This document shows, in pieces, positions 11,820 to 46,605 of a DNA stretch of 64,000 bases; position 1 is the first letter of the stretch, and every line of letters starts with the position of its first letter. The notes below the pieces were generated by a model that searched no databases, was not told the DNA's origin, and worked only from the letters and a program-made list of their open reading frames with translations. Origin of the DNA: Diphasiastrum complanatum (lineage: Eukaryota; Streptophyta; Lycopodiopsida; Lycopodiales; Lycopodiaceae); contig CM055093.1 in NCBI GenBank assembly GCA_029204225.1, positions 3,460,974-3,524,973 on the forward strand, read 5' to 3'. A program made the position numbers and the translations under genes.

Positions 11820-12629
11820 TGTTGGAAGTATTCCCAACAAAGTGTAAATAAATAAAATCGTCCAATAAAATGTGTTGCGAGGGCATGGCATCCTGCGCGT
11901 ATAAGCCCATGGCCCTATGAGCACGCAAGCCAAAGTGTAATAAAATAAAATAGACACGGGCCTTTGTAATTAAAATAAAACTTGAGGCACAAAGTCAATT
12001 TTAAACTTAGAGTTTACTTTTTAGAGTTGGGTCCAATTTTGGACTCACATGAATCTTGTGATTTCCAATGTACTTTTTGTAGACCCTTGGATCAAGTTGG
12101 GTCCAAGTTGAATGAATAGGATCAATGTGAATATTAGCCAATAGGATTGAGGGGCAAGGGCCTTCCCCATTTTATAAAAAGGCACCATTTGTACACTATT
12201 TGGGTGCTTAATAGAGAGGAGGAGACTCTATCATTTTGAGAGCTCAAGCATCCTCATTTGCTAATCACTCTTTCTTATGTTATTGTTGTGATTGCTAGTT
12301 ATTTCCATTTCTTCCATGCTTTTTGTTTGTGGCTACTTAAGGTTTCTCCATAGGCAATGACATTGAGCATTTGAGCTAACCTCCATCTCATCTTTCTCTC
12401 TTTCTCTCTTCTCTTCTCTCTTCCTCTTATTTTCTATCATTTTCCTTCACCCAAAAGCATGATGAATGTTAGTGTAGAGGAGTAGAGTTAAGGGAGACTA
12501 GTGTTAGTGGTGAATAGAGTTAGGGAGGAAGTAGGAAACTAACTAAAATTAGCATCTATGCATAGTTAGGTACCTATCCAGTGATCTAACCCTTGTTGAC
12601 AGGCGGGAGGGCTATACTTCGACTCTACA
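11820..12629 (+). repeat. Ty3/gypsy LTR (family A, 5' LTR)
   Basis: An 810-bp LTR starting TGTTGG and ending CTCTACA, followed by a tRNA-Asp type primer site. It is closely similar to the LTRs at 15791-16602 and 46606-47413. It shares more private features with the copy at 46606 (for instance 'gaggaggagactctatcattttgag' and the 'aggcgggagggctatac' end) than with the one at 15791. A CCAAT word at about 12137 and TTTATAAAAA at 12171-12180 form a likely promoter. Confidence 0.9.
12171..12180 (+). promoter_or_regulatory. TATA box of the gypsy LTR
   Basis: TTTATAAAAA lies in the middle of the LTR and is preserved at the same place in the two other copies (16141-16150, and TTTTATAAATA near 46957), with an upstream 'agccaat'. 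The position fits the U3/R border; this is inferred from sequence only. Confidence 0.5.
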
Positions 12630-12630
12630 G

Positions 12631-12648
12631 TGGCACCGTTGTCGGGGA
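12631..12648 (+). other. tRNA-Asp type primer binding site (two mismatches)
   Basis: TGGCACCGTTGTCGGGGA differs at two positions from TGGCGCCGTTGCCGGGGA, the complement of the plant tRNA-Asp 3' end used by Tat/Athila-like gypsy elements. The intact form is at 16604. Confidence 0.85.
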
Positions 12649-13929
12649 TAGGTTTCCACTAACTAGTTTAGCTGCATTTTAGCTATTTTCTTGCTTTTTA
12701 GAGTAGTTTTAGGTATATTTTTGGGTGTTTAGAGTTAGTTTTCTGTATTTTTTTGTGTTTGGACTGTTCACATCTAGCGGAGGAGGTGTGAGAGGGTAGA
12801 GGAGGCCCTGAACAGCCTCTAAGGTCTTGAAACCCAAAGCAACCAGCCAAAAAATCCAAAAAACACACCAATTTGCATTTTTGGAGGGAAAAAGAGCCTA
12901 AAATCTCATCAGATTTTAATATCTCTAGAACCAGTGTGAATTAACCCTTGCATGACTGGCAACAGCTCCAGGGTACTTTCCCAAACCTGCATAGAAGCCT
13001 GCGAGTGTTAGTTCCAAGCAGATTGTAAAAATCAGAGAGAAATCATAAAAAAATTCAAAAAACCCTTGAAAAAATCCAAAAAAATTCAAATCTTCATAAA
13101 AACTCTTGCAGAGCCCTCTGAAGTTCCATCTCAGTGAGACTAGGACACAGAGAAGCTTGCGAGAGTTAGTTTGATGTCTAAGTGCATGTGCGAAAGTTCC
13201 CAATGAAAAAAAGCCGAGAAAGTACTAGTGAACCCTCGCAAACAGCAAAATTTTCAGTTCCAGTGGTCAAGAACTCTTGCAGAGGATTTTGAAGTTCCAT
13301 CTCAGTAAGACCAGGACACAGAAGAGCTTGCGAGAGTTAATTTGATTCCAGTGAGCAAAAAATTGGATTTAAATGCAAAAAAATCACTAAAAAGTGAAGA
13401 TCCAGCAAATCTTTCCAGTAAGAACTCTCACAAACCCTCTCAATCAATTTAAAATGATAATTTCCATCAGTGATAAAGCCTACAAGAGTCAGTTTTGAGA
13501 TTTGTGAAGATCAAGCCAAAAAAGTGGATTTGAACTCTCATAGATAGTGAAATTTTTACTTCTTGCGAGAGTTAACTCTCGCAGAGAATTCTATAGTGAG
13601 ATCTGACCCAGATCCAGCTACTGTGAGTCTTGCAAGAGTTACTTCCCAAGGATCTGAGAGATATCATGTTTTTTTTTATCTGCAAAAATAGCTATAGAAC
13701 CCTCGCACAATAGATCCCTCGCAGACCAGATTAGTGAAAAGATCTGCATCAGATCTAGCTATTGTCAAAATCTTAGGTCAATCAGTGCAAGGATAAAAAG
13801 TTATCAAGGAAAAACCATCGCAAAAGGCCTAAAATTCACTTCCAACCGATCAGATCGATCAGATCCTTGAGATCCAGACTGCATCCTACTATATAAGCAA
13901 GATCCAATCACTTTGGAATCCACCATCGG
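12649..13929 (+). repeat. Non-coding leader of gypsy A with repeated TGCGAGAGTT/AACYCTCGCA motifs
   Basis: About 1.3 kb between primer site and gag without a coding frame. It contains diverged units of about 160 bp (starting near 13100 and 13269) opening with an 'aactctTgCaga' phrase. Many copies of a decamer TGCGAGAGTT (for example 13158 and 13329) or its complement occur, and a perfect 20-bp palindrome spans 13564-13583. The same architecture is in leader B (16622-17831). Confidence 0.8.
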
Positions 13930-15790
13930 ATGAATCTGAGATCAGGACAATCAATAGCACGAAAGATAGCAAATCAAGCACCACACCTTCCCAGATTAGC
14001 AATTGTGCAACAAGAGGCAAAACCGAAACCAGCACCAATGGATCCAATGGGCCAATCCATACATGTCGCTCCCTTGAAAGCAGTCTGGAGAGCACCACGG
14101 ATGAAAATACCAAAGTACAACGGATCATCCAATCTCATCCAATTCCTCCATATCTACGAGCAAACTTGTGAAATCTATGGCGAACGGACACCTGTGGAGA
14201 AGGTGATGTTGTTCCCCATGTCCTTATTGGCAGTGGCTCATGATTGGTTTTTCAACCTGTCAAAGGAAGAAAAATCTACCTGGGAAGCGGTTAAAGCGGC
14301 TCTCATTACGCGCTTTAAACCAAGAAATTTCCTGGAAGACCCATTCCTCCTGCTGAGCAAAGTCAAGATGGGAAAATGAAAAAGGGTCAGGGACTATATT
14401 GAGGGGGTCAAACACTTAAGATCCGAGTGCAGTGCAGCCCTAACTCCTGATCATGCGGTGATCATGTGGTTTCTAGCCGGACTACCACAAAGCATCAAAA
14501 GAGAACTGAAACGATGGGAGCAGTACGCTACTCTGCAAAAAGCTATGGAAGCTGCCATCAGGGAAGAGGATGAGAGATCTGACGACGAATATCCATCCAC
14601 CCCACCCCTATCCCTCGTTAGCATCATCATCCTCAAATGTGCTATATCCACAAAACTGTTGTTGGAGCAAATGATGAAATTACACAAACAGCAGATGGAG
14701 CAACTTACGATGTAGTTTGACCAAAAACTGAAAGCCTTACAGGGAGCTGTAGCAATAACGCCACATCAATCGGAACCAAACCAACTGCAGTATCCAAGGC
14801 GGGAGAATGTACGGAGTTCAGTGTGCACGCAAAACCATACAGCAAACGAGTTTCCAGTCCTAAAGCAAAATCTGAGATTGACACATAGATTCTACCATCT
14901 GTGCAATGCAACATCGCATGATACGGCATTTTTCCCGTTTAACCCCAGATTGTTCAACAGAAGAGAAGTCATTATCATACTTCTTATCCTTATCATCAAG
15001 GGGCACCCAACGCGGCACAAAGGTACGGTGCATCGAATCAACAACAGCGTATGGCCTTTCCTACACCACTAGGGCCAGCCAATCAACAAGTGGCCCATGT
15101 AAACCTGACAGCAGCGGAACCAGAGATGCAAATGCCACCTCAACCTAAGCAGCAGCAATGGTACAAACCAGATGAATCATTTATGGATCTTGCCATAAAT
15201 GAATATGTTGCGGCCTATGCAGCTCAAACTCAACGTCAAGGCGGAAGAAATTATGGCTCCTACGAACGCGACGAATGACACAGAATTGCGGAATGTCCCT
15301 ACAAGGGACATTATACATCCTTCTATCGAGAATGTGATTATGGGCATTGTTACAAGAATTGTCCATTTAAACCTGGAACCAGTGCACCTCTTAACTTCAT
15401 TGCAATACAAGCAACCAGTAGTTCCAGTAGGGATGTCATTGAAAGGATGACAATTCCACGCTCCCGTGTTAGCTGTTCTGCGAGCACAGAAGAGGAAGGA
15501 AGTGGCTCCCTCACCACCACCATTGATCACTGATGACCAACCCTCAACTTCCGTGCCATATCCGAATGTGAGGGAAGAAAGAAGGCAGTACCAGAAAATA
15601 AGACATTGGGTACAGAAAGCACAAGCGGAGGAACAAGAAAGAGACAATCTCACGAAACCTCCAGTTGTCATCGAACGGATACTGCAAGCGGGCTCACCAC
15701 TGCGCACTGATCAGAATGCTCGGTTGCACCAACATGAACCACCTTTTCACATGGTGGAGTCCGAGGAACCACGCACTGAACGGCTCACAC
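13930..15790 (+). pseudogene. Ty3/gypsy gag pseudogene (copy A)
   Basis: The frame opens with 'MNLRSGQSIARK' at 13930 and runs through a retrotransposon Gag domain ('LLAVAHDWFFNLSKEEKSTW', 'WFLAGLPQSIKREL'). A stop at 14377 and later frameshifts break it. The zinc-knuckle part (about 14815-15380) is recognisable, but several Cys residues are lost (Cys to Phe and Tyr), in contrast with copy B, where they are kept. The protein would package the element's RNA. The frame ends abruptly inside the Gag C-terminus at 15790, where an LTR starts; the equivalent point in copy B is about 26140. No protease, RT or integrase follows in this copy. Confidence 0.85.
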
Positions 15791-16602
15791 TGTTGGGGGT
15801 ATTTCCAACAAAGTGTAAATAAATAAAATCCTCCAATAAAATGTGTTGCAAGGGCATGGCATCCTGCGTGTATAAGCCCATGGCCCAATGAGCACGCAAT
15901 TGAAGTTGTAAATAAAATAAACTTGACTTGGGCCTTGTAATCAAAATAAAACTAGAGGCCCAATGTCATTTTTAAACTTAGAGATCACTTTTTAGAGTTG
16001 GGTCCAAATTGGGACTCACATGAATCTTGTGATTTCTAATGTACTTTTTGTGGACCCTTGGATCAAGCTGGGTCCAAGATGAATGGTTAGGATCATTATG
16101 AATATTAGCCAATAAGATTGAGGGGCAAGGGCCTTCCCCATTTTATAAAAAGGCACCATTTGTACACTATTTGCATGCTTAATGAGGAGGAGGAAACTCT
16201 ACCATTTTTGGGAAAAGAAGCATCCTCATTTGCTATTCACTACTTGTTATTGCTCCTGGTTGTGTTTTCTATTGCTTTCTATTTCCATGTTTTATTGTTT
16301 GCCATAGTGAATGTTTTTCCATTAGCAAGCATAAGGGGTATTTCAGCTAACCTCCACCCTCACTCTCTTTCTCTCTCTTTCTCTTCTCTTCTTCTCCATC
16401 TCTTCCCTTCAACCAAAACTATGATGAATGTTAGTGTAGAGGAGTAGAGTTAAAGAGGAGTAGTATAGTGGTGAGTAGAGTTAAGGGAGAAAGTAGGAAA
16501 TTAACTCAAAGTAGCATCTATGCATAGTTAGGCACCTATCTAGTGATCTAACCTATGTTGACAGGCGCAGGGGCTATACTACAAAAGATCCACGACAGTA
16601 CA
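15791..16602 (+). repeat. Ty3/gypsy LTR (B, 5' LTR; also the right border of A)
   Basis: An 812-bp LTR, TGTTGG…GTACA, followed by a perfect tRNA-Asp primer site. It belongs to the same family as 11820 and 46606 but is the most diverged of the three ('ggaggaggaaactctaccattttt', 'gcgcaggggctatac'). Because a primer site and gag follow, it acts as the 5' LTR of B while also ending A. Confidence 0.9.
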
Positions 16603-16603
16603 G

Positions 16604-16621
16604 TGGCGCCGTTGCCGGGGA
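16604..16621 (+). other. tRNA-Asp primer binding site (perfect)
   Basis: TGGCGCCGTTGCCGGGGA, exactly complementary to the conserved 3' end of plant tRNA-Asp, one base after the LTR. Confidence 0.9.
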
Positions 16622-17831
16622 TAGGTTTTCACTAACTACTTTAGTTCCATTTTAGCTATTTTCTTGCTTTTTAGAGTAGTTTAGGTACATTTTTGGAGTT
16701 TAGAGTTAGTTTTCTCTATTTTTTTGTGTTTGGACTTCACATCTAGCGGAGGAAAACACACCAATCTGCATTTTGGAGAGAAAAAGAGCCAAAAAAACTC
16801 ATCAGATTTTTATATCTCCAGAATCAGTGGGAAATAACCCTTGGACTGGCAGCAGCTCCAAGGTACTGTCCCAGACTTGCATAGAAGCCTGCGAGAGTTA
16901 GTTCCATGCAGATTCTAAAAATCAGAGAAAAATCATAAAAAATTCAAAAATCCCTTGAAAAAATCCAAAAAAATTCAAATCTTCATAAGAACTCTTGCAG
17001 AGCTTTCTGAAGTTCCATATCAATGGGACCAGGACACAGAAGAGCTTGCGAGAGTTAGTTTGATGATTAAGTGACTGTGCGAGAGTTCCCAGTGAAAAAA
17101 AGACGGAAAAATACCAATGAACCCTCGCAAGCAGTGAAATTTTCAGTTCCAGTGGTCAAGAACTCTCGTAGAGGATTCTGAAGTTCCATATCAGTGAGAC
17201 CAGGACACAAAAGAGCTTGCGAGAGTTAGTTTGATTCTAGTGAGCAAAAAATTGGATTTAAGTGCAAAAAAAACACTAAAAAGTGAAGATCTAGCAAATT
17301 CTTCCAATAAGAATTCTCGCAGACCCCCTCAATCGATTCAGAATTTCAATTTACATCAATGATGAAACCTGTGAGAGTTAGTATGAAGATCTGGTGAAGA
17401 TCAAGCACAAAAAATTATTTTGAGCCCTCGCTGACAATGAAATTTTCACTTCTTGCGAGAGTTAACTCTCGCAGAGAATTCTATAGTGAGATCTGACCTA
17501 GATCCAGCTACTGTGAAGCTTGCGAGAGTTACTTCCCAGAGATCTGAAAGATATCAAATTATTTTTCTGCAAAACAACTAAAGAACCCTCACACAGCCAA
17601 CCCTCGCACAAGATAATCCTCGCAGACTAGATCAGTGGAAAGATCTACATCAGATCCAGCTACTGTCAAAATCTCATGTCAATCAGTGCAAGAAGTAAAA
17701 AGTTATCAAGAAAAAACCATCGCAAAAGGCCTAAAATTCATTCCGGCCGATCAGATCGATCAGATCCTTGAAGATCCAGAGAGCATCCTATTGTATAAGC
17801 AAGATCCAATCACTTTGGAACCCACCATTGG
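16622..17831 (+). repeat. Non-coding leader of gypsy B with repeated TGCGAGAGTT motifs
   Basis: Exact TGCGAGAGTT occurs at 16890, 17047, 17078, 17218, 17454 and 17521. Complementary forms (AACTCTCGCA, accctcgca, ttctcgca) occur at about 17121, 17313, 17464, 17600 and 17616. Three diverged units begin near 16989, 17159 and 17309, each with a 'gaactctcgcaga'-like start; the first two share 'gaagttccatatcaGtG.gacc'. Bases 17454-17473 form a perfect 20-bp palindrome. There is no coding frame. Confidence 0.85.
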
Positions 17832-19490
17832 ATGAATCTGAGATTGGGATGATCAATAGCACGAAGGATAGCAAATCAGGCACCACACCTTCCCAAATTA
17901 GTAGCTGTGCAACAAGAGGCAGAACCAAAACCAGTACCAATGGATCCAATGGGCCAACCCGTACCTGTTACACCCTTGCATGCAGTTCAGAGAGCACCAT
18001 GGATGGAGATACTAAAATACGATGGATCCTCAGATCCCATCTGATTCCTCCAGATCTACGAGCAAGCTTGTAAAATCTACGGCGAACGGACACCTGCAGA
18101 GAAGCTGATGCTATTCCCTATGTCTTTACTTGTAGTGGCTCAGGATTGGTTTTTCAACCTGTCAGAGGAAGAGAAATCCATCTGGGAAGCGGTTAAAGCG
18201 GCTCTCATTACGCGTTTTAAACCAAGAAAGTTCCTAGAAGACTCATTTTTCCTGCTAAGCAAAGTTAAGATGGGAAAACGAGAAAGGGTCCGGGACTATA
18301 TTGAACGGGTCAAACATCTACGATTTGAGTGCAGTGCAGCCATGACTCCCGATCATGCGGTGATCATGTGGTTCCTAGCCGGATTACCACGAAGCATCAA
18401 AAGAGAACCGAAAAGACGGGAGCAGTACGCTACTCTGCAAAAAGCTATGGAAGATGCCATTAGGAAAGAGGATGAGGGATCTGAAGACGAATATCCTTCC
18501 ACCCACACTCCTACTCCCTCGATCATATCATCATCATCAAACGCATCCGCTCTATGCACAGAACTGTTGTTGGAGCAAATGACAAAATTACACAACCATT
18601 AGATGGAGCAACTAACGGCACAGTTTGACCAAAAACTGAAGGCCTTACAAGGAACTGTAGCAGTAACTCCACATCAATCGGAACCAACCCAGCTACAGTA
18701 TCCTCAACGAGAAAATGTATGGTGTTCAATATGCACGCAAAACCATACAGCGAACGAGTGTCCAGTCCTAAAGCAAAATTTGAGACTGACACATAGATTC
18801 TGCCATCTGTGCAATGCAACATCGCACGATATGGCATTTTGCCCATTCAACATCAGGGTTGTTCAACAGAAGAGAAGTCCTTATCAGACTTCTTATTCTT
18901 ATCATCAAGGGGCATCTAACGCGGCACCAAGGTACAACGAACCCAATCAACCACAACGCATGGCCTTACCTGCTCCACCAGGGCCAGCCAATCAACAAGC
19001 GGCCCATATAAACCTGCAACAGCAGAACAAGAATTGCAAATGTCACCTCAACCTGAGTAGCAGCAGTAGTACGAACCAGAAGAACCATTTATGGATCGTG
19101 CCATAAATGAATATGTTCTGGCCTATGCAGCTCAAACTCAACGTCAAGGTGGAAGAAATTACGGCTGCTACGGGTGCGGCGAGGGACACAGAATTGCAGA
19201 ATGTCCCTACAAAGGACAATATACAATCTCTTGCCAGGATTGCGATTATGGACATTGTTTCAAGATTTGTCCATTTAAACCTAGAACCAGTGCACCTCTT
19301 AACCTCATTGTCATAGAGCAATCAGCAGTTCTAGCAGGGATGCCAACGAAAGGTCAACACGACTACGCTCCTGTGTTAGCTGTTACGCGAGCACATAAGA
19401 GGAAGGAAGTGGATCCCTCACCACCACCATCGGTCACTGACGACCAACCCTCAACATCAGCACCATATCCAAATGTGAGAGAAGAGAGAA
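17832..19490 (+). pseudogene. Ty3/gypsy gag (copy B), split by the copia insertion
   Basis: Starts with 'MNLRLG' at 17832, then a TGA. The Gag core is well kept from 18108 ('FPMSLLVVAQDWFFNLSEEE', 'VIMWFLAGLPRSIKRE'). Unusually, four CCHC zinc knuckles follow in order: CSICTQNHTANEC (about 18723), CHLCNATSHDMAFC (about 18800), CYGCGEGHRIAEC (about 19165) and CQDCDYGHCFKIC (about 19232). Most gypsy Gags have one or two. The reading continues after the 6.4-kb copia insertion, from 25932 ('QERNNPTEPPVDVEPDP') to about 26330. Stops at 17850 and 18040 and a TAG at 18601 disable it. The retained zinc residues suggest it decayed later than copy A. Confidence 0.85.
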
Positions 19491-19572
19491 GACAGTGTGA
19501 AAATTGTCAACATTTCCTAGCTAGTTTGAGGCCTAAATTGGCTAAAATTGTAAATAGTTTTGGTTCTGGAGT

Positions 19573-19586
19573 TTCACACGTGTGAA
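19573..19586. promoter_or_regulatory. G-box palindrome in the copia LTR
   Basis: TTCACACGTGTGAA is a perfect 14-bp palindrome centred on CACGTG, the core bound by plant bHLH and bZIP factors. The same word is in the 3' LTR at 25349-25362, and variants recur in the LTR at 33840. A regulatory role is inferred. Confidence 0.45.
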
Positions 19587-19709
19587 CCAGGCCACAATGT
19601 TTTTATTTATTGTATTTTTTCAGTATGATGAAGTGTCAAACTTCATACCCTTCAAAATGAGACCATTTTGATGTATTTTGGTCATATAAGCCATTTTTAG
19701 CTATTTTTC

Positions 19710-19718
19710 CTATATAGG
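19710..19718 (+). promoter_or_regulatory. TATA-like box of the copia LTR
   Basis: CTATATAGG lies about 215 bp into the LTR, with the same sequence in the 3' LTR near 25486. It is the only good TATA candidate in the LTR and would place the RNA start about 30 bp downstream. Confidence 0.45.
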
Positions 19719-20150
19719 GAATATCTAGGGTCAAGTACCTTCTAGAGAGAGGAGAGAGAGTCATCTTCCTCATCCATAAATAGTAGGGAAGTCGTGGAGA
19801 ACAGGTTGGAGAAACCTTTTGTATGCTTCATTGAGATCAATAGATCATTGTCATTGTTTCTTCCTCCATTGAGAGCATTGTTGTGTGTATTGTCTTCAAG
19901 CTATTGTGTATGATCTTAGGTGCTTTCCAAAAGTGATAGGCTGATGTATTATGGACTGTATAATGCTATTTTGGGCCGCACTTGATGTTTATGGAAGTTT
20001 CCATTTGTGATAAATGCTTTTTGATCAAGTTCTTTGCATTCTAGGTAGCATAGAATGTGTTGCCAATTCCTAGCTTATGTAGTTTGGAGTGCAAGCATTC
20101 AAGCCAATGATCTTGGAGTTTAGATCCACTTAGGATCTGTATTTTTCACA

Positions 20151-20162
20151 TGGTATCAGAGC
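20151..20162 (+). other. tRNA-iMet primer binding site of the young copia element
   Basis: TGGTATCAGAGC follows the 5' LTR without a gap. Confidence 0.93.
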
Positions 20163-21322
20163 TGGTTGGCTTCTATTTACAGTAAGTATTCCATTTTTGG
20201 TGATATTTGGATGTTTGATCAAGTTCTAGCATGATTTTGCATTGCTTTGTTGATCAAATCTTACTAACCTTTGTTTTGTGAGTTGAACTTGTGGATCAAA
20301 AGCATATTTCAGGTCTATTGAAGATCAGAGGCTGAAAAGAAACTATTTTGGATCAGATCATAACACCTAATCATTTGTGATTGTGAGGCTTGTGCATATT
20401 CAATACTAACAATGTTCTTTTCAATCCTATTGTTGACAATCTCCATTCTTGGATGAACACTCTCCTTAAGTGGATGAAACTTCTCCTTAAGTGGATGACA
20501 AATGCTCTTTTGAGTGAGTTGTAATTCTCCTAAAGGCTGAGAAAAGCTCCCATTTGGATGAAAGATCCCCTTTTTTGGGTGAACATATTGTAAGCTCCAT
20601 TGCGAAGAGCATATTGTAAAGATTGTCATCAATTTTGGCATAAATTTTGGTGTACTTTGTTGAGCATGTAAGTAACTCTCCTTATGTAATTTGATTGGAG
20701 CTTTTGCTGGAAGGTGTTAACCATTATGCAAGTGTGTTTTCAGGTTCTTAACAGGTTGAGAAACATTCTCATGTGAAGTGATCTTAGATCTACATCTAAA
20801 CACCAAGATTTGACAAGATAGTGAAGCTAGTCTTGTGATTCACTAAGTGTGCTCATTCATTCACCTCTAAATCTTGTATTTATCACTTGCTGGAGTTTAT
20901 AAACTTTTAGAAGTGTGGTTTACATGTGGTTTTACAGGTTGAATCAATATCTTAGTGTGTTGATCATATGTTGATCAAGTTTGTTCATTACTAGGTAATC
21001 TTGGCATCCTAGTTTTGGGTATTTTCTAAGAATGCAAGTAACTCTTCACACCATAACTTGATTTGGTCACTTGCTGGAAAGTTTGAGAGCTTAAGCAAGA
21101 GTGTGTTCAGGTTGGTTTGATTTTGTAATCCATTCTTAGTGTGTGCAAAGTGTTGCATGTGTTTCAATCTTCCTTTCTATGCTTGGAAACCATCTAGGTT
21201 CAAGATAGAAGTGTTTTAGGGTCCTAAATCTTCATAGATCTCTTTATCTATCATTTGTTGAGAGAAAAGTGAGTGCTAAGTGCTTTAGGACAGAACCTAA
21301 AAGTTGAAGAAACATTAGAATC
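20163..21322 (+). repeat. Untranslated leader of the young copia element with diverged repeats
   Basis: There is no coding frame. A recurring phrase 'ttgctgga…gtgtg…caggtt' occurs near 20706, 20886 and 21071, spaced about 185 bp, pointing to three diverged tandem units. Around 20460-20560 a shorter phrase, 'tccttaagtggatgaaa', is repeated with variation. The polyprotein ATG at 21323 is the first ATG with a long frame. Confidence 0.7.
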
Positions 21323-24300
21323 ATGGCTTCCAATGGTGGGATCATGCTAGAGTCTAGTGAAAGGTTGAGTTCATCAAACTACTCTACTTGGAAAGTGAGG
21401 ATGGAGTCCTTACTTGAGTTGAATGAACTCATGGACATAGTTGCAGAAATTGAAGAGAGACCTCTCACACTTCAAGAGCAACAAAGGTTTGATAAGAAGG
21501 CCAAAAGGGCTCTTCATATCATTAAAATGAATGTTACAAATGAACTTCTCAAGGAAGTTGGAAAGTGTCAAAGTGCAAGTGAGGCATGGAATGCCTTAAA
21601 GAAGCTCTTTGAATCAAAGTCCACATCTAGGGTATTGACCCTAAGGAGACAAATATTTTCTAGTAGGCAAAGAGAGGGTGAAAGTGCTCATGCATTTATC
21701 TTGAGAGTTAAGTCCCTAAGTGATGATTTAGTATGCATTGATGAGAACATAAAAGATGGTGAAATAGTCCAAGTTATGTTGAATGGTTTGCTAAATGAAC
21801 ATGCTAACCTTGTGCAAAGTTTTGCCATTCAAAGAGTCTTGCCAAGTGTGGTTGACTTGCAAGAAATCTTATTGGCTGAAGAACATAGGTTGCAATCAAA
21901 GCTTGATGGTGCATCCTTGCAAGGTGGAGGTGAAGAGGCTTTCTTCACAAAAGGCAAATTCAAGGGCAAAGGTAAAGGCAAAGGGAAATGGTCCAAAGGT
22001 GGTAACTTTGATCATGATGATCACTCTTCCTCTTCCTCTTCTACTAAGAACAATAAGTCAAAGTTCAAGTGCTTTTATTGTGGGATAAAAGGTCATTTTG
22101 CAAATGAATGTTATAAGAAGAAAAGAGAGCAAGGAGAGAGGCAAGGAAATCTTACAATAGATGAGGAAGAACATAACACATGTGAATCACTTGTTATGAC
22201 TTCAAGTTTGTTAGCCAACATAGATGATAATGATCCTTGGTGGATTGATAGTGGAGCCTCATCTCACATGACAAGACATAAGGAATACTTTACATCCTTA
22301 TTGTCTTATGAGGGAGAAGGTAACATCATCTACACTGCAAATGATGGTCAATGTGACATCAAAGGCATAGGCACTATTCCTATTTCCCTTTCAACAAATA
22401 GGAAAGCAAATCTTGAAAATGTTTTGTACATTCCTTCAATCACTAAGAATTTGCTTAGTGTAAGTCAAATGATTGACAAAGGACTTGATGTGGAGTTCAT
22501 TGGAGATGCATGTTTGATAAGTAAATGTGGATCCTTGATTGCTCAAGGTAGGAGGCATGGTAAACTTTTCAAGCTTGATGCATGTGTGATCTCTAATCAT
22601 GAAGGATGTATGGCTAGGGAGCAATTGACAAACCAAGAAGTTTGGCACAAGAGGTTGGGCCATCCCAACTTCAAATCTTTGGAGGTAATGGCAAAGAAAG
22701 AGCTTGTTCTTGGTCTCCCTAAAAGTCTTGTTGCAAACAATAGTGTTTGTGAACATTGTGCCTTGTCCAAATCTCATAGACTTGCTTATTCTAGATCTAC
22801 TTCTAGATCTAAAGAAGCTTTTCAACTTGTGCATTCTGATATTCATTCTTCTAGTACAACTAGCAATGGTGGGGCAAAGATGTATGCAACTTTCATTGAT
22901 GACTTTAGTAGGTATACTTGGATCTATCTTCTTAAAAGTAAGGATGAAGTGTTTGCTGCATTTGTCAAGTTCAAGAATGAAATGGAAAACCAATTCAATA
23001 CAAAGATCAAATGCTTAAGATCTGATAATGGAGGGGAATACACCTCAAATAGGTTCAAAGACTTTTGTATAGCACATGGGATTAAGAGGGAGATGTCTAG
23101 TCCTAGGACTCCACAACAGAATGGAGTGGCCGAGAGGAAGAATAGAACCCTTTGTGAATGTGCCAAGGCAATGAGACTACATGCTAATCTTGCTAGGTCT
23201 TTTTGGGGGGAAGCTTTAGCATGTGCTAACTATCTATGTAATAGATGGACAAGTGCTTCCTTGGATGGTAAAACTCCTCATGAGGTTCTTTATGGTAGAA
23301 GGCCGAGTGTCAAGCATTGTAGGATCTTTGGATGTACATGTTTTGTCAATATCACACTTGATGATAGAACTAAAGAAGATCCTTCATCAAAGAAGGGTGT
23401 GTTTGTTGGCTATAGTGAAGTAAGCAAGGCTTACAAAGTGTACATTCCTTCTACAAAGAAAGTTGTCATAAGTAGGGATGTCATCTTTCATGAAGAGAAT
23501 GTTTCCAATGTTGTTGATGTTGATGTTGATGTGCCTACTAATCATCATGATGTGCAAGATGTCTTGGATGAAGATGGAGATGCCACTCCAAAGCAAACTT
23601 CAAGGAAGACTCAAAGGCAAAGGGCTAAGCCATCAAGGCTAACCTATGATGAAAAAGGAAAGCAAGTGGTGGACAACTCTAACTTTGCTTTTCTTACCTC
23701 TTTTGATGAACCAACTTGTGTAGGTGAAGCAATTCAAAAGAAGGAATGGATCCAAGCCATGGATCATGAGCATCAAGCACTCATCAAAAGCAACACATGG
23801 AGGTTGGTAAAGCTTCCAAAGGACAAGAAGGCAATTGGTTGTAAGTGGATCTTCAAGATCAAGACAAATCAAGATGGATCAATCAACAAGTACAAGGCAA
23901 GGTTGGTGGCAAAGGGGTATGCTCAAGAATATGGTATTGACTATGATGAGACCTTTGCACCCGTGGCAAAGATGGTAACTATTCGAATCCTAATCTCTCT
24001 TGCAACTCTTTATGATTGGGATATGTGGCAAATGGATGTTACTAATGCCTTCTTGAATGGTGATCTTGAAGAAGATATTTACATGGAGCAACCCGAGGGC
24101 TATGTTTCACATGATGAGCCTAATCATGTGTGCTATCTCCAAAAGAGTTTGTATGGGCTAAAGCAAGCACCAAGGAGTTGGTATGCTAAGCTCAATTCCT
24201 TCTTACTTTCTCAAAACTTTGTTATGAGTGAGTATGATCATTCTCTCTACTTTAGATTGAATGAAAATGATATCACTTTACTTTTGATCTATGTTGATGA

Positions 24301-25276: not shown

Positions 25277-25926
25277 AAATTGTCAACATTTCCTAGCTAG
25301 TTTGAGGCCTAAATTGGCTAAAATCGTAAATAGTTTTGGTTCTGGAGTTTCACACGTGTGAACCAGGCCACAATGTTTTTATTTACTGTATTTTTTCAGT
25401 ATGATGAAGTGTCAAACTTCATACCCTTCAAAATGAGACCATTTTGATGTATTTTGGTCATATAAGCCATTTTTAGCTATTTTTCCTATATAGGGAATAT
25501 CTAGGGTCAAGTACCTTCTAGAGAGAGGAGAGAGAGTCATCTTCCTCATCCATAAATAGTAGGGAAGTCGTGGAGAACAGGTTGGAGAAACCTTTTGTAT
25601 GCTTCATTGAGATCAATAGATCATTGTCATTGTTTCTTCCTCCATTGAGAGCATTGTTGTGTGTATTGTCTTCAAGCTATTGTGTATGATCTTAGGTGCT
25701 TTCCAAAAGTGATAGGCTGATGTATTATGGACTGTATAATGCTATTTTGGGCCGCACTTGATGTTTATGGAAGTTTCCATTTGTGATAAATGCTTTTTGA
25801 TCAAGTTCTTTGCATTCTAGGTAGCATAGAATGTGTTGCCAATTCCTAGCTTATGTAGTTTGGAGTGCAAGCATTCAAGCCAATGATCTTGGAGTTTAGA
25901 TCCACTTAGGATCTGTATTTTTCACA
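25272..25926 (+). repeat. 3' LTR of the young copia element
   Basis: 655 bp, identical to the 5' LTR except for two C/T differences that I could find by eye. It is followed by the GACAG duplication and then by the interrupted gypsy gag. Confidence 0.97.
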
Positions 25927-25931
25927 GACAG

Positions 25932-26756
25932 TACTAGAAAATAAGACACTGGGTGCATAAAACACAAGAGGAGGAAAGAGAGCAAGAACGAAACAATCCC
26001 ACAGAACCTCCAGTCGACGTCGAACCAGATCCGCAAACAGACTCACCACTGCGCATTGATCAGAATGATCGATTGCACCAACATGAACCACTTTTTCACA
26101 TGGTGGAGCATGAGGAACCACGCACTGAAAGGCTCATACTCCTGTTGTCAAGCCACGTTAGTTTACCCCTCGGAAAACTACTACGGATTGCACCACAAGC
26201 GAAAAGCCTTCTAGCTGAATGGGCCAAGGCGGATGAGAAGCCAGTAGCGCCTGAGCCCATATATTGTGCGGGCGATGATGAAACAAGTAACGTCCTCCAC
26301 ATCGGAGCAGCATGCGAAAGTGAGGAACACAACATCACTTTGCCAATCAAACACAAGAGATTTGAGGACGAGGCAACAGTGGTAGATGGAGGATCGGGTG
26401 TCAATCTGATCTCCACTACTTTGTACAAAAAATGGGGATTACAAGGATTGAAGCCAGCCAGATTCGCCATCAAGTTAGCAGATCAATCCTGTGTGAAACC
26501 AAAAGGTGTAGTTGTTGGTATCCCGTAAAGATAGTAGGCATGAAGTATATGATTACTTTTGTGGTCATGGATATACCTGAATCTCCATCTGCAAACGGTA
26601 TTTTACTGGGAAGACCATGGTTGAGGGCTGCGCAAGTAATACACAACTGGGGTATAGGGAAACTCACCTTCAAGAACAGAGAACAGGCTGTAAAGGTGGA
26701 TCTAACCACATGGGCAGTAAAACCTATTGCACAAGTTTTGACACTATTTGATGGCC
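25932..26756 (+). pseudogene. Gypsy B: end of gag and aspartic protease, resumed after the copia element
   Basis: The gag C-terminus continues from 25932. The protease follows: 'VVDGGSGVNLIS' (about 26380) in place of the usual D-T/S-G motif, and 'GILLGRPWLRAA' (about 26601), the flap/ILG region. A frameshift near 26525 separates the two halves. Just after 'VKVDLTTW' and 'LFDGHTF' the reading changes directly to the end of RNase H, so reverse transcriptase and most of RNase H are missing. The Asp-Gly-Gly-Ser-Gly active site is an odd variant and may be inactive. Confidence 0.8.
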
Positions 26757-28232
26757 ACACATTTTGCTTTTACGGACCATCAACCCTTGCTATATCCCGT
26801 TAATAAAACTTGCAACACCGGAAGAATCACCAGATGGCTCCTGTTGTTGTTGGAATTTGATTTTCGGATAGTAGTTCGTAAGGGAAAACGACACTACATG
26901 GTAGATCATGTGTCACGAATCAAGGGAAAGGAAATTGCAACCCAACCCGATGATGAGCTGGCAGATGCTGCCTTATTTTACGTGGATACAGTACCAGAAT
27001 GGGCTGCCGACATTGTTGAATATCTAATGCGGGGCCAACCAGAAACATCACTACCAAAGGCGGAACAACGGAAATTGATCTTAAAAGCTAGACCTTATCA
27101 GCTGATTGCCAGCCAGTTGTACCAAAGAGGTCTAGACAGAATTCTTCGGCGGTGTATTCTTTCTCATGAGACCACCCAGATCATTTCGCTTTCACATGAA
27201 GGCATGGGTGGAGGTCATTTTGCATCTGACATTACAGTTCGCAAGGTCCTGCAATCAGGATGTTGGTGGCCAACGATTCATAAAGACACAGAGGAATACT
27301 TGAAAAAGTGCGATGTGTGCAAAAGGGCAAGAAGACCAATGAGATTGAACTATGACCTACTGCAACCAATCTTAGTCCAAGCACCGTTCGAGAAATGGAG
27401 ATTGGATTATATTGGTCCAATTCACCCTGTAGCAAGGAGTTCCCAGGCTCGATACATAGTCGTAGCCACAGACTACCTTATCAAATGGGTCGAAGCCAAG
27501 GCAGTACGAGTAGCTGACGCTAGGACCACTGCCAAGTTTCTTTATGAAAATAGCATTTTGCGCTTCGAGTGCCCGATGGAACTAGTTAGTGATCACGGAA
27601 GCCATTTCATCAACGAGACCATCAAGGTCCTATTGGAAGAATTCTTCGTGATCCACAGAACCAGTACACCTTATTATCCTCGTGGTAATGGGCAAGCAGA
27701 ATCATCCAATAAGATCATGTGTAGCGTGCTCACGAAAACAGATGAAGCTAGCAGATCATATTGGGAACACAAGTTACATGCTGCACTGTGGGCAGTCAGA
27801 ATAGCATATAAAGATAGCACTAATCAAACACCATTTCAATTGGTATACGGTCAGGATGCTGTGATGTCAATAGAGTTTCTAGTTCCTTCATTAATAATTG
27901 CCACCGCACAACGTCTTAATGAGTCCAAATCTCTATAGGTATGGCACGAAGCTCTGCATAAACTCTGTGAAACACGCTTACTAGTTGTGCATGCACTGGC
28001 AGCTGAAAAGGAAAGACGCAAGGCTTGGCATGATTGCAAATTACAAAAAAAGGATCTTTGATTAGGAGATCTGGTCCTGATGTATAAAACCAAGGCGATC
28101 AAGGGGAAGTTAAAATTCACAGGCGAAGGTTCTTAGAGGATCAAGAAAATTCTTAATCATGGGGTCGTGAACTTAGAATAGCTTGATGGGACGCCCTGTG
28201 ACACACCCGTCAATGGTAGCCAGTTGCACAAG
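26757..28232 (+). pseudogene. Gypsy B: RNase H remnant and integrase
   Basis: A frame open from 26748 to 27938 starts with the tail of RNase H ('FTDHQPLLYPVNK', 'RWLLLLLEFDF'). It then gives a full integrase: an HHCC finger ('SHEGMGGGHFASD … CDVCKRA', about 27190-27330), catalytic Asp in 'RLDYIGPIHP' (about 27405), Asp in 'VSDHGSHFI' (about 27592) and Glu in 'NGQAESSNK' (about 27697). All three catalytic acids are present. A stop at 27938 precedes the C-terminal module ('GDLVLMYKTKAIKGKLKF', about 28065-28230) of GPY/F type. Integrase would insert the cDNA, but without RT the copy is not autonomous. Confidence 0.88.
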
Positions 28233-29338
28233 TAATGGCCACCAAAGTAGGACAGATCCAGATTAGGGATGACACGTTACAAAAAGCTAATCTGCTCAGC
28301 CATTACCGCTAGATCTAAGGAGATTAGGCCAAATCAAGCTAAATCCATGAAGATTCAGCCAGATCTGACAGGATCGGGAAAATCCATCAGAATCCAAGGA
28401 GGATCCAGATCCTGATAGGGTCAAAAAAGAAGCAGACCATCAGATTGACTGAGGGATCTACTACCAAGAATCCATCAAAACTTCCAAAGCACTACCAACA
28501 GTCAGATCAAGCTTGGATGAAGCTGATTGCCAGTTTACAAAAGTTAAAAATCAGAAAATCTCGAGATCTCGTCAAAAAAAAAAAAACACTCTGAAGGAGC
28601 ACTTTTTTCATGATTTTTTGAGATCCCCTGGGAGATAGCTCTTGAAAATTGGACAGTCACCAGATCTGACCTAGATGCATCCATGAAAATCTCTGTGAGA
28701 GTTCTTGATGGAGGAGTCATCATTTTTTAGTGTACGCGGGAGTTCCCAGAAGCAGAATTTCTGAACCCTTGCAGAGCATCAAGATCAACTTACCAACTCT
28801 TGCAACGTGCCTAAATGGAATCAGAGCAGTGAAATTAGCCTGCCTATATGGTCTGATCTTGAAAATCCAATCACAGGAACAAGTTGTGCGAGAGATTACT
28901 TCTTGCAAGAGTTCAACCCTCGCAGAACCTTCGCATACCAGTCAAATCACCTTCTGAACTCTCGTAGACTTCCCTGAGGTCTTAGAATTTGTGAAGAAGG
29001 TGCCTCCCAAAATTTGGATGGAATTGAACAAGGGAAAGTGAATTTCACCTAATACGCACTCTAAATTCCGCTATATAAGGGATGAATTTGAGTCATTTGT
29101 CATCTTTGCTAGCGAAGCTCTGTCGAGATTTCCACTGATAATACCAAGTTTTTTGTTTTCAACCAAACTTCCTACCAGCTGTCATCTGTCATCTGCTCAT
29201 ATCAAACAACGATCTACACTCTGAACTACAATCATTGTCATCCAACACTCATTATTCTCAATTTTCTACTATTTCCTTCCATTTTCCACCGTTTTTCTAC
29301 TTTTTTGACTTTTTCGACCACTAATTATCATTGCTAAC
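28233..29338 (+). repeat. Non-coding spacer between pol and ORF3 of gypsy B
   Basis: No frame. The same TGCGAGAG / CTCGCAGA motif as in the leader recurs (28695-28970: 'tgtgcgagagattac', 'caaccctcgcagaac', 'gaactctcgtagac'). A matching spacer is at 43199-44277. Confidence 0.75.
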
Positions 29339-30376
29339 ATGGCCTCCTCATCCTCTGAAGACTCTGGCGCCAAACAGGTGATCCAGCGTGACATCCCCGA
29401 GGCCACGCAAATTTGGCCTCTACCCTCTGACACTTTGATCCAACCATGGCTGCAGACAACCGCGCCCCTCCAAGAAGCAATGGATTTTTATTCGGCGCTC
29501 TTCCATTCTGAGATTAACATGGGCCTCGGCCTTCACGCTTACACCACCTGGGACGAGGACAAGGCCCGTTTCCACTTCGTGTACCAAGGTACCACGTACA
29601 AGGTCAGGATTAATGTCGACTCAATGATCACTGTTGGCATTATGTTCGTTGATCATCAACCCATTGCCACGCCAAGCTCTGATCAAACCATTCGTCACCC
29701 AAACCACACCAAAAATTCCCATCCAGACTAACAATGGTGACCTGACTGAAGCTATCACGGAACTCGTCATTCAAGTAGCTGCGCATCTGTTGAATAACTT
29801 TCTGGTTATTTCAACATTTCGCAAGGACAGAATCCAGTCTACGCTGCTGAGTCAGATAGTGAAATCCTTTCTGGAATTCCCTAACCCCTCCGTTGTGCCA
29901 TACGATTGGCATAGCTTCCTTATTCGAGAACTAACAAACTCCATCAAACCCAACAAGCAGGCCCCCTGTTGTGTAACTTTGCATGCACACTTCTTGAGGT
30001 GAAAGTGCATGGTTTCCAACGCTCATCTCTCCTGTCTACCCTTGTGCCATATACTAACCTTTACCCACCATCTCAAGCATCTACCTCCTCCCAACCTGCA
30101 GTCATTAACACAACGGCCAGCAAACGAATGCGTGGTGCTGCCTCTACATCCACATCTCCACCTGTTACCTGACGACGTGTCTCCACTGCCGCACTAACTA
30201 CTCCATCAACCACCGCCACTTCTTCTTCCATGCAACCCCCCACTCCAATTATTGTTGTCATTACCTCTCTTCCTATTCCATCCACATTTGTTTCTGTCTC
30301 CATCTCTGTTTCTTCTGTTGATACCACTCCTACTTCTCTTTCAATGTCCGCTGCTCCATCCATCACCATCGCATCC
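29339..30376 (+). pseudogene. Gypsy B: additional ORF (ORF3) after pol, truncated
   Basis: Starts 'MASSSSEDSGAKQVIQRD' and reads through 'QIWPLPSDTLIQPWLQ' and 'INMGLGLHAYTTWDEDKARF'. Frame changes near 29660 and 30000 follow, then a Ser/Thr-rich part. It is a clear homologue of 44278-46560. Similarity to that copy stops at about 30376 ('ccatcaccatcgcatc'), where minus-strand gypsy sequence starts. The position after integrase matches the extra ORFs of Tat- and Athila-type elements. I recognise no domain, transmembrane segment or enzyme motif in this copy, so its function is unknown. Confidence 0.7.
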
Positions 30377-42128: not shown

Positions 42129-42239
42129 GGGTTATTTGGTGCACTTAACCTAGTCGGTGAACATGAACATATGATCAATGATGAAATGGCTTATCCGATC
42201 ACTAACTATCTCCACTGGGCATCCAAAGCAATCAGGATC
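42129..42239 (+). other. Short unassigned junction segment between copia LTR and gypsy C
   Basis: 110 bp with a short open reading ('GEHEHMINDEMAYPITNYL'). It may be gypsy internal sequence upstream of integrase or a filler at the rearrangement point. Its origin is not clear. Confidence 0.3.
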
Positions 42240-43198: not shown

Positions 43199-44277
43199 CC
43201 ACTATAGTGAGATAGATCCAGATTGGTGGGGGCACGTTACAAAAAGCTAATCTGCTAAGCCATCACCGCTAGATATAAGAAGATCAAGCCAAGATCAAGC
43301 TAAATCCATCAAGATTCAGCCAGATTTGGCAAGATCGGGAAAATCCATCAGAAACCAGATCTAGATAGGATCATCAGATTGACTGAGGGATCTGTTACCA
43401 AGTATCATCAGAACTTCCAGAGAACTACCGACAGTCAGATCAAGCCTGGATGAAGCTGATTAGCAGTTTACATAAATTAAAAATCAGAAAATCTCAAGAT
43501 CTCATCAAAAAAACACTCTAAAAGAGCACTTTTTCATGATTTTTTTAGATCCCTTGGGAGATAGCTCTTGAGACTTGGATAGTCACTAGATCTGACTCAG
43601 ATGCATCCATGAAAATCTCTACGAGAGTTTCTGATGGAGGAATCACCATTTTTTAGTGTGTGCGAGGGTTTCCAAAAGCTGAATTTTTAGAACCCCCGCA
43701 GAGCATCAAGATCAACTTACCAACCCTCGCAAGGTGGCGAAATGGAATCATAGCAATGAAATTAGCCTGCCTACATGGTCTAATCTTGAAAATCCAATCA
43801 CATGAACAAATTGTGCGAGAGATCACTTCCTGCGAGAGTTGAAACCTCGCAGACAACTTGAACCCTCGCAGAACCTTCGCATAGCAGTCAAATCACCTTT
43901 TGAACTCTCGCAGACTTCCTTGAGGTCTTAGAATTTTGTAAAGAAGGTGCTTGCAAAAATTTGGGTGGAACTAAACAAGGGAAAGTGGATTTCACCTAAT
44001 ACGCACTCTAAATTCTACTATATAAGGGCTGAATTTGAGTCATTTGTCACATTTGCTAGCGAAGCTCTGCCAAAATCTACACTAGAATTACCAAGTTTTC
44101 CGTTTGTGACCAAACTTTCTACCAGCTATCATCCGATCATACTGAACACTAATCTGCGCTCTAAACTACACTTCTTGTCATCCAACACTCGTTGTTCACA
44201 GTTTTCTGCCGTTTCCACACCTTTTTTCATTTTTCATCGTTTTCCTACTTTTTTGATCTCTAATCATCACTGCTAAC
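43199..44277 (+). repeat. Non-coding spacer between pol and ORF3 of gypsy C
   Basis: Equivalent of 28233-29338. It holds TGCGAGAGTT at 43831-43840 and complementary forms (ccaaccctcgcaag about 43720, gaaacctcgcagac about 43841, gaaccctcgcagaac about 43860, gaactctcgcagac about 43901). No coding frame. Confidence 0.78.
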
Positions 44278-46560
44278 ATGGCCTCCTCATCTTCTGAAGA
44301 CTCTGGCACCAAACAGGTGATCCAGCGTGACATCCCTGAGGCCACACAGATTTGGCATCTACTCTCTGTCGCTTTGATCCAACCATGGCTGCAGACAGCC
44401 GGCGTACTTCTAGGGGCAATGGGTTTTTACCCAGCGCTTTTCCATTCTAAGATTAACATGGGCCTCGCCCTTCATGCTTACGCCACCTGGGACGAGGAAA
44501 AGACTCGTTTCCACTTCCTATACCAAGGTACCATGTACAAGGTCAGGATTAACGCAGACTCGATGGTCAGCATTGGCATTATGTCCGGTGATCGTCACCC
44601 AAACTGCACCAGAAATCCCAATTCAGATTAACAATGGTTACCTTTTAGATGCTATCACGGAACCTGCTATTAAGACGGCTATGCATCTGTTGAATAACTT
44701 TATGGTTATTTCAACATTTCAAGAATCCACTCTAAGCTACTGAGTCAGATAGTGGAATCCTATCTGGAATTCCCTGGCCCCTCCATTGTGCCATACGACT
44801 GGCATAGCTTCCTTATTCATGAACTAACCAACTCTATCAAACCCAACAACCGTGAGTGTATCGCAGCAGGCCCCCTGTTGTGTAACTTTGTCTGCGCACT
44901 TCTCGAGATGAAAGTGCGAGGTTTCCAATGCTCATCTCTTTTGTCTACTCTCGTGCCACATACTAACCTTTATCCGCCATCTCAAACATCCACCTCCTCC
45001 CAACCTGCAGTTATTAACACAACGGCCAGCAAACGAATGCGTCGTGGGGCTGCCTCTACATCCACATCTCCACCTGCTACCCAAAAATGCACCTCCACTA
45101 CCGCACTAACCACCCCATCAACTACCGCCACTTCTTCTTTCGTGCAACCCGTCACTCCGATCTTTGTTGTCGCTACCTCTCTTCTTGTTCCATCCACATC
45201 TGTTTATGTGTCTACCCCCATTTCTTCTGTTGATACGATTCCTATTTTTGTTCTGTTATCCACTACTCCGTCCATCACCATCGCATCTTCCATCACTCCT
45301 GCCGCCACCATTGCTTCCATTCTGTTCAATCCTTTTGATTATCAATTATCTCTAGACACTCTGGCGTGGATGCAAGTCATCAATTTTTCACCTCCACGCC
45401 AGACCCTTTCTTTCGGCATCAGGTGCAAGTTTATAGCCAAACCTTAAATAGCTACCAGACAGAGTTCAACAAATATCGGACAAGCGCAACTCACGAGCTC
45501 GCCCAGGCCAAACAAGCCCTCAAGGCGTACCAAAAATTCATGGACACGAAGGCCGAGCCCACCCTCGTGGTAATTCCACCACCATCGATTTTTGACGCTG
45601 CACAGGCCAGTACCAGCCAAGAACAAAGCCAACAGGCAGCAGGGGGATTTAACCAAGATCAAGGGTCTGAAGGCCAAGATCAAGGGCAAACAGATACGGC
45701 TATTGAGACGCGAGACCAGGGCCAAGGCGCAGATACCAGCCAAAGCCAAGCCACATCATCCAGAGGTTTGCGCATGATATATGTCAGCCGGGCCTTCCGA
45801 AAACCCAAGTTTGTGGAAGAGAAAATCAACGAATTCCTATCAAAGTCTCCCCATGAGTCATCAAGAGGCGGCTGACAGATATCATTTTCAGCTCAGACCA
45901 TAAAGGGCAAAGAACTGCAAGCATTACCCGCCCTCCAACCACAACTAGAGTGGCGTCATCAGTTGTTCGAAAGATACCCTGCGGCCATCAGGGCCTACGT
46001 GATGAGTCCCCAACAATTACGGGTGAACGTGCACTTCCTGCCATGTACACGAAGATCCAAATGGGTGGAATGCGGCACCCCTTTGGACAAGATCAAACTT
46101 CATAATTTCAATTGGCTGATCATACAGTCAGAATATGGGTGGACTACGGATGTAGATGCCAGAAGGGCTCTCACCGCGTTCGCAAACCATTATATCAATT
46201 GTCCCGATCCAACAGTCCGCGCGATAGTCACTTACATCTGAGACCTAGAACATCTAATGGAAATCGAGACTAAATGGGACAATTTTCTCCCATCCATATT
46301 CTTTGACGTTAATAAGGCATTACCTTCAGACAAAGTCGAAGATCAGCTGCCAATCGCTCGTGCGTATTACCGAGCTGCACTTCTGGGCAATCCATGGACA
46401 CGCAGATTCCAAACATGGGTCGACCAAGATTGACTGCGAGGAGTCCACAAGTCCCTTCACACGCCCAAGGACTTGAAGAAACTGGACCGTCTCAACTTCA
46501 TGGAGGACGTCACCACCTACCTGATCCAGCAAAGACGGGCGAAGAAAGCACTATACTAAA
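44278..46560 (+). pseudogene. Gypsy C: additional ORF (ORF3), nearly full length but broken
   Basis: Starts 'MASSSSEDSGTKQVIQRD' and reads, over several frames, about 760 codons. The parts in order are an N-terminal globular part ('NMGLALHAYATWDEE'), a helical part ('IVPYDWHSFLIHELTNSI', about 44781), a long Ser/Thr/Pro-rich linker (about 44980-45350), and an amphipathic segment likely to form a coiled coil ('YQTEFNKYRTSATHELAQAK', about 45452). A Gln/Gly-rich stretch (about 45610-45760) and a last globular part ('SEYGWTTDVDARRALTAF', about 46128) complete it. The place between integrase and 3' LTR is that of the aORF/env-like genes of Tat and Athila elements. I see no signal peptide or clear transmembrane helix. 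Frameshifts near 44630, 44745, 45400, 45870 and 46240 inactivate it. Function unknown. Confidence 0.65.
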
Positions 46561-46605
46561 CCGGCAGAGTGCCGAGGGACCGACACTACTTCAGGCCGTG
46601 GGTCC

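Follow-up and report, generated by a model that had tools for sequence, protein, structure and literature searches.

Short words that recur in transposable elements and are read by a specific protein are, judged by analogy, a known general kind, represented by the VANC targets and the gypsy insulator and likely also by the Sirevirus boxes. The Mutator-like VANDAL elements of Arabidopsis carry a short, family-specific word on tandem repeats in non-coding element DNA (PMC5735166), and these words coevolve with VANC, an element-encoded DNA-binding anti-silencing protein (PMC5735166, PMC10398659). The RM boxes of Sireviruses (Ty1/copia) are palindromic, multi-copy and non-coding and lie upstream of ENV, if present, and of a TATA box; boxes, mostly with a CGG-CCG core, also occur in the LTRs (PMC2829016). 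The leader of the Drosophila Ty3/gypsy element gypsy contains about a dozen protein sites that make up the Su(Hw) insulator (PMC8228293, PMC6385973), and the iterons of geminiviruses are short iterated words upstream of a gene that vary among close relatives and are read by the cognate Rep protein (PMC12548392). A 2026 sunflower paper that discusses methylation heterogeneity of LTR elements, Athila included, brings up a model of cis motifs and trans factors akin to the VANC system (PMC12844716). In the open-access literature, to the extent that its text was available, we came across no description of Athila-type elements with 57-bp inverted pairs whose word switches from family to family.

The arrays reported here are, by analogy, VANC-like in logic: a family-specific word is dense in non-coding DNA and absent from other families. 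The words do not share one orientation, unlike the dense, single-orientation motifs of VANDAL21; they run in both orientations, in part as inverted 57-bp pairs, and belong to an LTR retrotransposon. They differ from the Sirevirus boxes in that the two LTRs tested (copies B and C) have no site at ≤1 mismatch, the core is GCGA/TCGC, the unit is a split pair, and the arrays occupy the leader and a 3' spacer. The clustering of sites in the leader is shared with the gypsy insulator, for which the host factor has been identified, whereas the binding protein here is putative. Geminivirus iterons are a replication signal of DNA viruses, and we saw no sign of common descent with the present arrays.

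The window, a 64-kb stretch of the 1.74-Gb genome of Diphasiastrum complanatum, holds parts of one Athila-like Ty3/gypsy family. Copy A has an LTR from 11820, a leader at 12640..13929 (+) and a gag ATG at 13930. Copy B begins with a 5' LTR (15791..16602, +; defined by self-BLAST, its ...TACA end judged by eye) that includes a TATA-like stretch near 16142; 1 base past the putative LTR end lies the primer-binding site (PBS) TGGCGCCGTTGCCGGGG (16604..16620, +), followed by a leader of about 1.2 kb (16622..17831, +), gag, a copia insert, the motif-free integrase part of pol (26748..27938, +), a spacer and ORF3 remains. Copy C runs from pol at 42228 through a spacer and the stop-broken remains of ORF3, the 3' additional or env-like ORF (44278..46241, +; frames 44278-44631, 44752-45447, 45366-45875 and 45963-46241), to an LTR at about 46606-47413. 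In Pfam searches, gag matched Retrotrans_gag and pol matched Integrase_H2C2 and rve. The copies were scrambled by nesting or recombination within 11820-30375 and 42228-47413; copy A ends where the LTR of copy B begins (15790/15791), and the family LTRs in the window number only three. The copia element inside copy B, at about 19494-25926, encodes gag, integrase and RT domains in a single frame of 1317 aa and has 657-bp LTRs that are 99.7% identical; its insertion is very recent. A tandem repeat with a 247-bp unit, about 97% identical, occupies 62524-63188.

We take TGGCGCCGTTGCCGGGG to be a PBS of the tRNA-Asp type; the word has 743+685 exact genomic places, against 0 for the reversed control. 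Its position near the 5' LTR, the leader of unusual length, and a gypsy gag-pol accompanied by a further sense ORF that separates integrase from the 3' LTR are traits of the Athila/Calypso group, and the Athila-like label, a sequence-based assignment, is drawn from the PBS type, the leader and the extra ORF. A tRNA-Asp primer is used by Diaspora and the Calypso group, and Diaspora has its PBS 5 bp past the LTR and a leader of 873 bp (PMC1142308). Athila 3' ORFs are reported to match the Pfam models PF20167 and PF03078, and that of sunflower Athila is predicted to be nuclear (PMC11728184). When ORF3 was compared with these models, a 555-aa open frame (L038) and a fragment from L085, a sister element introduced below, matched no Pfam family at E≤1, and a Pfam search with ORF3 of copy C returned no match. 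An AlphaFold model of the N-terminal part of ORF3 was uninformative (mean pLDDT 39.8).

The word, AACYCTCGCA in general form, occurs exactly as TGCGAGAGTT/AACTCTCGCA 13 times in 64 kb, against 0.08 expected. Leader B contains 7 exact sites and 13 at ≤1 mismatch, in both orientations, and leader A contains a like array of 4 exact sites and 12 at ≤1 mismatch. An earlier note on this DNA had listed six exact plus-strand copies at 16890, 17047, 17078, 17218, 17454 and 17521, and a perfect 20-bp palindrome at 17454-17473 conserved in copy A at 13564-13583; all of these are present, and the palindrome has 351 exact copies in the genome (reversed control, 0). Its statement that the word is missing from LTRs and coding parts also held: we tested seven stretches from LTR, gag, pol/INT and ORF3, and all had 0 sites at ≤1 mismatch; shuffled controls (100 per stretch) gave maxima of 1-2 and means of 0.02-0.18 at this threshold. 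The claim that the same word lies in the spacers after integrase was right for copy C, where two copies are exact (43831 + and 43903 -), and needs loosening for 28690-28970 of copy B, where the array (28694..28966, +) has no exact copy and 6 at ≤1 mismatch. The copy C array (43620..43912, +) has 7 sites at ≤1 mismatch; at ≤2 mismatches to either B-type form, its sites are 43620+, 43661+, 43691-, 43722-, 43814+, 43831+, 43842-, 43861-, 43872- and 43903-.

For the wider family, we used the best-scoring 30 of 40 scored loci each for leaders and spacers (4602 and 3429 first-look candidates, respectively), all close relatives, with window copies B and C counted among the 30s (L001 and L034). Every one of the 30 leaders had 10-16 sites at ≤1 mismatch and 4-10 exact sites (n=30, copy B among them). 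Outside the leader, 28 of the 30 4-kb loci had no site at ≤1 mismatch, the other two having 1 (L018) and 5 (L025). The majority sequence of the family has the exact word at 11 of 17 leader sites, and many single-copy deviations from the word are therefore later decay, largely at CpG.

The minus- and plus-strand words of leader B are combined into four inverted pairs with start-to-start offsets of 57, 57, 58 and 57 bp. Unit 1 (16990..17056, +) consists of AACTCTTGCA, 47 bp and TGCGAGAGTT; unit 2 spans 17161..17227 (+; 57-bp offset) and unit 3 spans 17312..17379 (+; 58-bp offset). Unit 4 (17464..17530, +; 57-bp offset) takes the right half of the palindrome as its minus arm. In majority coordinates of the B family, four pairs stand at exactly 57 and one at 58, and the distance from pair to pair varies from 86 to 119; the 57-bp offset is thus held tighter than its surroundings. 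Minus-57-plus pairs numbered 4, 5 and 3 in leaders B, L080 and L073 (the latter two from sister families described below), against random means of 0.08, 0.16 and 0.04, and none of 5000 random placements reached the observed number in any of the three; two further sister leaders, L075 and L076, have 2 such pairs each. A genome search for exact B-type pairs, with the gap left free between 33 and 62, found 2038 places (reversed pattern, 0); among the 50 listed, 31 had a gap of 47, 16 a gap of 48 and 3 other gaps, the 16 gap-48 pairs all being, by eye, one unit that resembles unit 3. The 57-bp pair was found in neither of the two spacer layouts examined for it. Helical phasing of the site spacings was not significant (random fraction 0.08-0.83), and the strands are split 7 plus to 10 minus in the B leader and 10 to 12 in L080.

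To place the word among relatives, we examined leaders behind the same PBS (the first 20 of 100 listed among 1428 places). Seven belonged to this family, one looked from its layout like a deletion derivative (L065), four carried a sister word, and eight had an excess of neither word; for these eight, the B word and a blind search were applied to all, and the sister word was counted in L067, L068, L072 and L082. The exact B word was absent from 12 of the 20. In L080, L073, L075 and L076, GGCGAAGGTT/AACCTTCGCC stands in place of the B word, with 9, 2, 1 and 4 exact copies and 16, 7, 4 and 6 at ≤1 mismatch, respectively. Blind word counts recovered it 16 times in L080 (eight per strand; maximum of 20 shuffles, 5) and 7 times in L073 (shuffle maximum 6), and a one-letter variant 8 times in L076 (maximum 6); in L075 another word topped the blind count, and the sister word is weak there. 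In exact form, the sister word was found in none of the B loci counted (30 leaders, 30 spacers), and the B word in none of the four sister leaders or the L085 spacer; when one mismatch to the sister word is allowed, B spacers average 0.93 site.

Sister leaders could be aligned with B over short stretches only (56-89 bp); in sensitive mode, alignments of L080 to other members of the family extended to as much as 636 bp, at 57-65%. The gags of L073, L075 and L076 were 50-53% identical to that of copy A over 46-75 residues; for integrase pieces the values were 67% (L085), 69% (L093), and 85% over 40 residues and then 67% over 18 (L084). The pair geometry is kept with the sister word: exact sister pairs, with the gap again free between 33 and 62, occur at 556 genomic places (reversed control, 0), and 44 of the 50 listed have a gap of 47. 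Grouped by sequence, the loops of these 44 make up at least 7 groups, with a between-group identity of 38% on average and 53% at most. Mixed pairs were also seen, at 18 genomic places (7+11), 11 of them with a gap of 47; the related loops of these places suggest a third family whose word would be intermediate between the B and sister words. Two other leaders from the PBS sample are of separate interest. L071 (G000:C1:6056725-6058152), one of the eight with an excess of neither word, carries TCCCAAATCT 11 times on one strand. L065 (G000:C1:855010-856437) has the PBS and about 149 bp of leader and then the site layout of the 3' spacer; seemingly without gag-pol, it is possibly a non-autonomous derivative or the product of recombination between two arrays.

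The spacer permits a site-by-site comparison. Two sister spacers were examined, L085 and L093, tied to leaders L073 and L076 by their position on one contig and strand. In L085, about 6 kb downstream of L073, integrase is followed by an array of the sister word at 1297+, 1338+, 1368-, 1399-, 1492+, 1503-, 1523- and 1554- (≤2 mismatches). Its first five offsets are 0, 41, 71, 102 and 195, against 0, 41, 71, 102 and 194 in copy C, with identical strands. Of eight homologous sites, all have changed at position 5, from C in copy C to T in L085, and 7 differ at position 10, where copy C has A and L085 has C. L093, 87-88% identical to L085, has eight sites, every one with T at position 5, and retains the strand order, the opening interval of 41 and the closing intervals of 11, 20 and 31; it has no fourth site, has its third and fifth offsets at 78 and 188, and has an extra minus site 57 bp before the first. 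Column identity between the C and L085 spacers (67% in motif columns and 66% elsewhere in a gapped alignment) was unusable as a conservation test, because the word itself has switched. As read from these layouts, a largely in-place, array-wide and concerted switch of the word in leader and spacer is our central result, and such a switch would be predicted if a single trans-acting factor had changed its specificity. Downstream of L080, in the one copy seen (L084), integrase leads to the LTR with no ORF3 and one 2-mismatch site, possibly through a deletion; L084 resembles in this respect the Sireviruses without ENV that lack linker boxes (PMC2829016).

Could the arrays have no function, being an old tandem repeat (unit of about 171 bp, four sites) that repeat turnover has made uniform within each family? 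Tandem duplication is part of their history, since the spacings 57, 31, 42 and 41 recur in L080 and appear once in leader B, and the L080 units align mutually at 58-62%; motif CpGs, moreover, decay at about the rate of other CpGs. Turnover would, however, redraw the layout, yet the C and L085 spacer layouts are nearly equal while every site has switched. Loops diverge while arms and offset persist, and leader and spacer switched together. The decay of a tandem repeat, which the earlier note had named as what would overturn its proposal, hence accounts for the recurring spacings and leaves the in-place spacer switch unexplained, and we consider a purely functionless origin quite improbable.

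Variation within the family bears on the same question. In an alignment of 29 leaders (L004 and L014 dropped as identical to L003 and L013, and copy A added), pairwise diversity was 0.047 in non-CpG motif columns and 0.071 elsewhere, with 5 of 1327 circular shifts as low; in 31 spacers it was 0.051 against 0.078, with 30 of 781 shifts as low. With CpG columns included, the motif was no less diverse than the rest in leaders (0.079 vs 0.073; 929 of 1327 shifts as low) or spacers (0.088 vs 0.087), because motif CpGs decay about like others (CpG diversity of motif vs other, 0.213 vs 0.181 in leaders and 0.251 vs 0.285 in spacers). Selection on the word within the family, as estimated from these sequences, is visible but modest, as expected if most change is post-insertion. 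The word in 30 of 30 leaders, the less variable non-CpG columns and the sister geometry kept with a switched word bear out the earlier proposal of a selected signal.

Between the spacer array and ORF3 lies a second conserved feature. TATATAA is found there in 29 of the 31 aligned spacers, and the least diverse full 20-nt bin (0.030; 31 spacers) is immediately downstream of this block. In copy C the block (44018..44068, +) reads CTATATAAGG, then GGCTGAATT...TAGCGAAGCTCT. It is the sole stretch aligned by blastn between the pol homology and ORF3 of L085 (121 bp, 65-66%), and it is kept in both sister spacers, as TATAAAT in L093 and only as CTATAAGC in L085. The block looks like a core promoter 260 bp ahead of the ORF3 ATG, and we treat it as a putative internal one. 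A candidate TATA box before gag in the leader was weak and was set aside: 24 of the 29 aligned leaders have TGTATAAG and only 3 have TATATAAG.

The earlier note had suggested an RNA or DNA signal, for example Gag binding, dimerisation or packaging, and that the RNA could form many interchangeable stems. Leaders are a usual location of packaging signals, and a stem-loop cluster in the genomic RNA, recognised by Gag, would be in keeping with several observations. Compared with 20 dinucleotide shuffles, leader RNA forms the better fold (B, z -5.8; L080, z -9.0), an outcome also expected of arrayed inverted words; four of the pair units tested have arms that pair at 10 of 10 positions in the majority state; three inner loop positions are complementary at 0.71 in the 7 loop groups, above chance; and minus-strand leader sites show more C-to-T than G-to-A changes at CpG (59 vs 25), a tilt also expected from a G-U-tolerant stem, although much of it comes from one T-majority site and plus sites and spacers show none (21:24; 20:19; 25:21). 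Arm complementarity of the genome-wide pairs is fixed by the query itself. Against such stems, folding did not extend to the C spacer, which barely beat its shuffles (z -1.4; 6 of 100 as good), and pair loops folded alone gave z below -2 in 2 of 36. Positions immediately inside the arms had a complementarity of 0 in the 7 loop groups and of 0.20 when 41 unique loops were counted, the fifth tested pair was complementary at 9 of 10 positions, and many sites are unpaired or lie in same-strand runs. Covariation across copies, the check that the earlier note had suggested, gave no excess: compensatory changes in five pairs over 29 leaders numbered 0, 1, 2, 1 and 0, against shuffled means of 0.9, 0.9, 1.4, 1.0 and 0.2. 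The whole leaders thus fold well, and the stems do not have the excess of compensatory changes that would back a retroviral-type RNA signal. The array upstream of the TATA block before ORF3 also counts against packaging, and we judge the Gag-recognised stem-loop cluster rather unlikely.

Since the loops rarely exceed shuffles in structure and compensatory changes are not in excess, we prefer arrays of sites on double-stranded DNA, bound by a protein specific to the family, to an RNA packaging signal. An interval fixed at 47 bases whose sequence is free and little structured is more readily understood as a DNA distance between two bound subunits. DNA as the target, protein binding and the regulatory outcome are what we infer from these comparisons, and we hold it somewhat probable that the leader and spacer arrays are double-stranded DNA sites of about 10 bp, read by one specific protein per family in a regulatory or anti-silencing role. 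Many of the sites would be recognised as inverted pairs at the 57-bp offset, and the putative protein would probably bind paired sites as a dimer or larger complex and probably keep the internal region of the element transcriptionally open. The leader array may then act on the LTR transcript as an enhancer or against silencing, and the spacer array may do the same for the internal ORF3 promoter. If the specificity of the protein changed between sister families, the sites would follow, from AACYCTCGCA to AACCTTCGCC.

Such a reader may be ORF3, Gag or a host protein. The lineage could run a sequence-specific activation or anti-silencing system of its own, in which an element-encoded nuclear protein, most simply the env-like ORF3 product, would bind the 57-bp inverted pairs both in the leader and ahead of the internal promoter from which it is itself expressed, each family having a private lock-and-key of protein and word; we regard this proposal as doubtful. 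L080 has a full leader array, yet the copy examined has no ORF3, which disfavours ORF3 as the reader of the word unless it is supplied in trans. A host zinc-finger-type protein that binds the leader sites and blocks enhancers or the spread of silencing would make the arrays a plant counterpart of the Drosophila gypsy insulator; the position matches that of the 12 Su(Hw) sites in the gypsy 5' untranslated region (PMC8228293) and the cluster logic is alike (PMC6385973). A shared host factor would not obviously switch specificity between sister families that inhabit one genome, unless there were two host paralogues, and the available portions of the gypsy literature (PMC8228293, PMC6385973) mention no second array before the third ORF, no fixed-offset inverted pairs and no change of word between families. 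We therefore rate an insulator of this type as very unlikely.

Whichever protein reads them, family-specific and spacing-constrained words could serve as bait, and they predict which protein binds which family. If the factor of the family-specific DNA sites proved to be encoded by the element, LTR retrotransposons would join Mutator-like DNA transposons as carriers of coevolving anti-silencing.

A scan of IMG/VR with a generic form of the paired unit returned six phage-like contigs (L087-L092) with 5-8 words per contig, against 0-0.22 by shuffling, which rules out chance as their source; the 57-bp pair itself is present in them by selection, being the search pattern. The L090 array had no match when searched against phages, nor did the L092 array against plasmids. 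In five of the six, all words are TGCGAGGGTT/AACCCTCGCA, and some of them form direct repeats that overlap. The arrays of L090 (2111-2387) and L092 (3445-3679) lie behind a D5-type primase-helicase gene, a place where replication iterons might stand, and the phage arrays are probably convergent with those of the plant.
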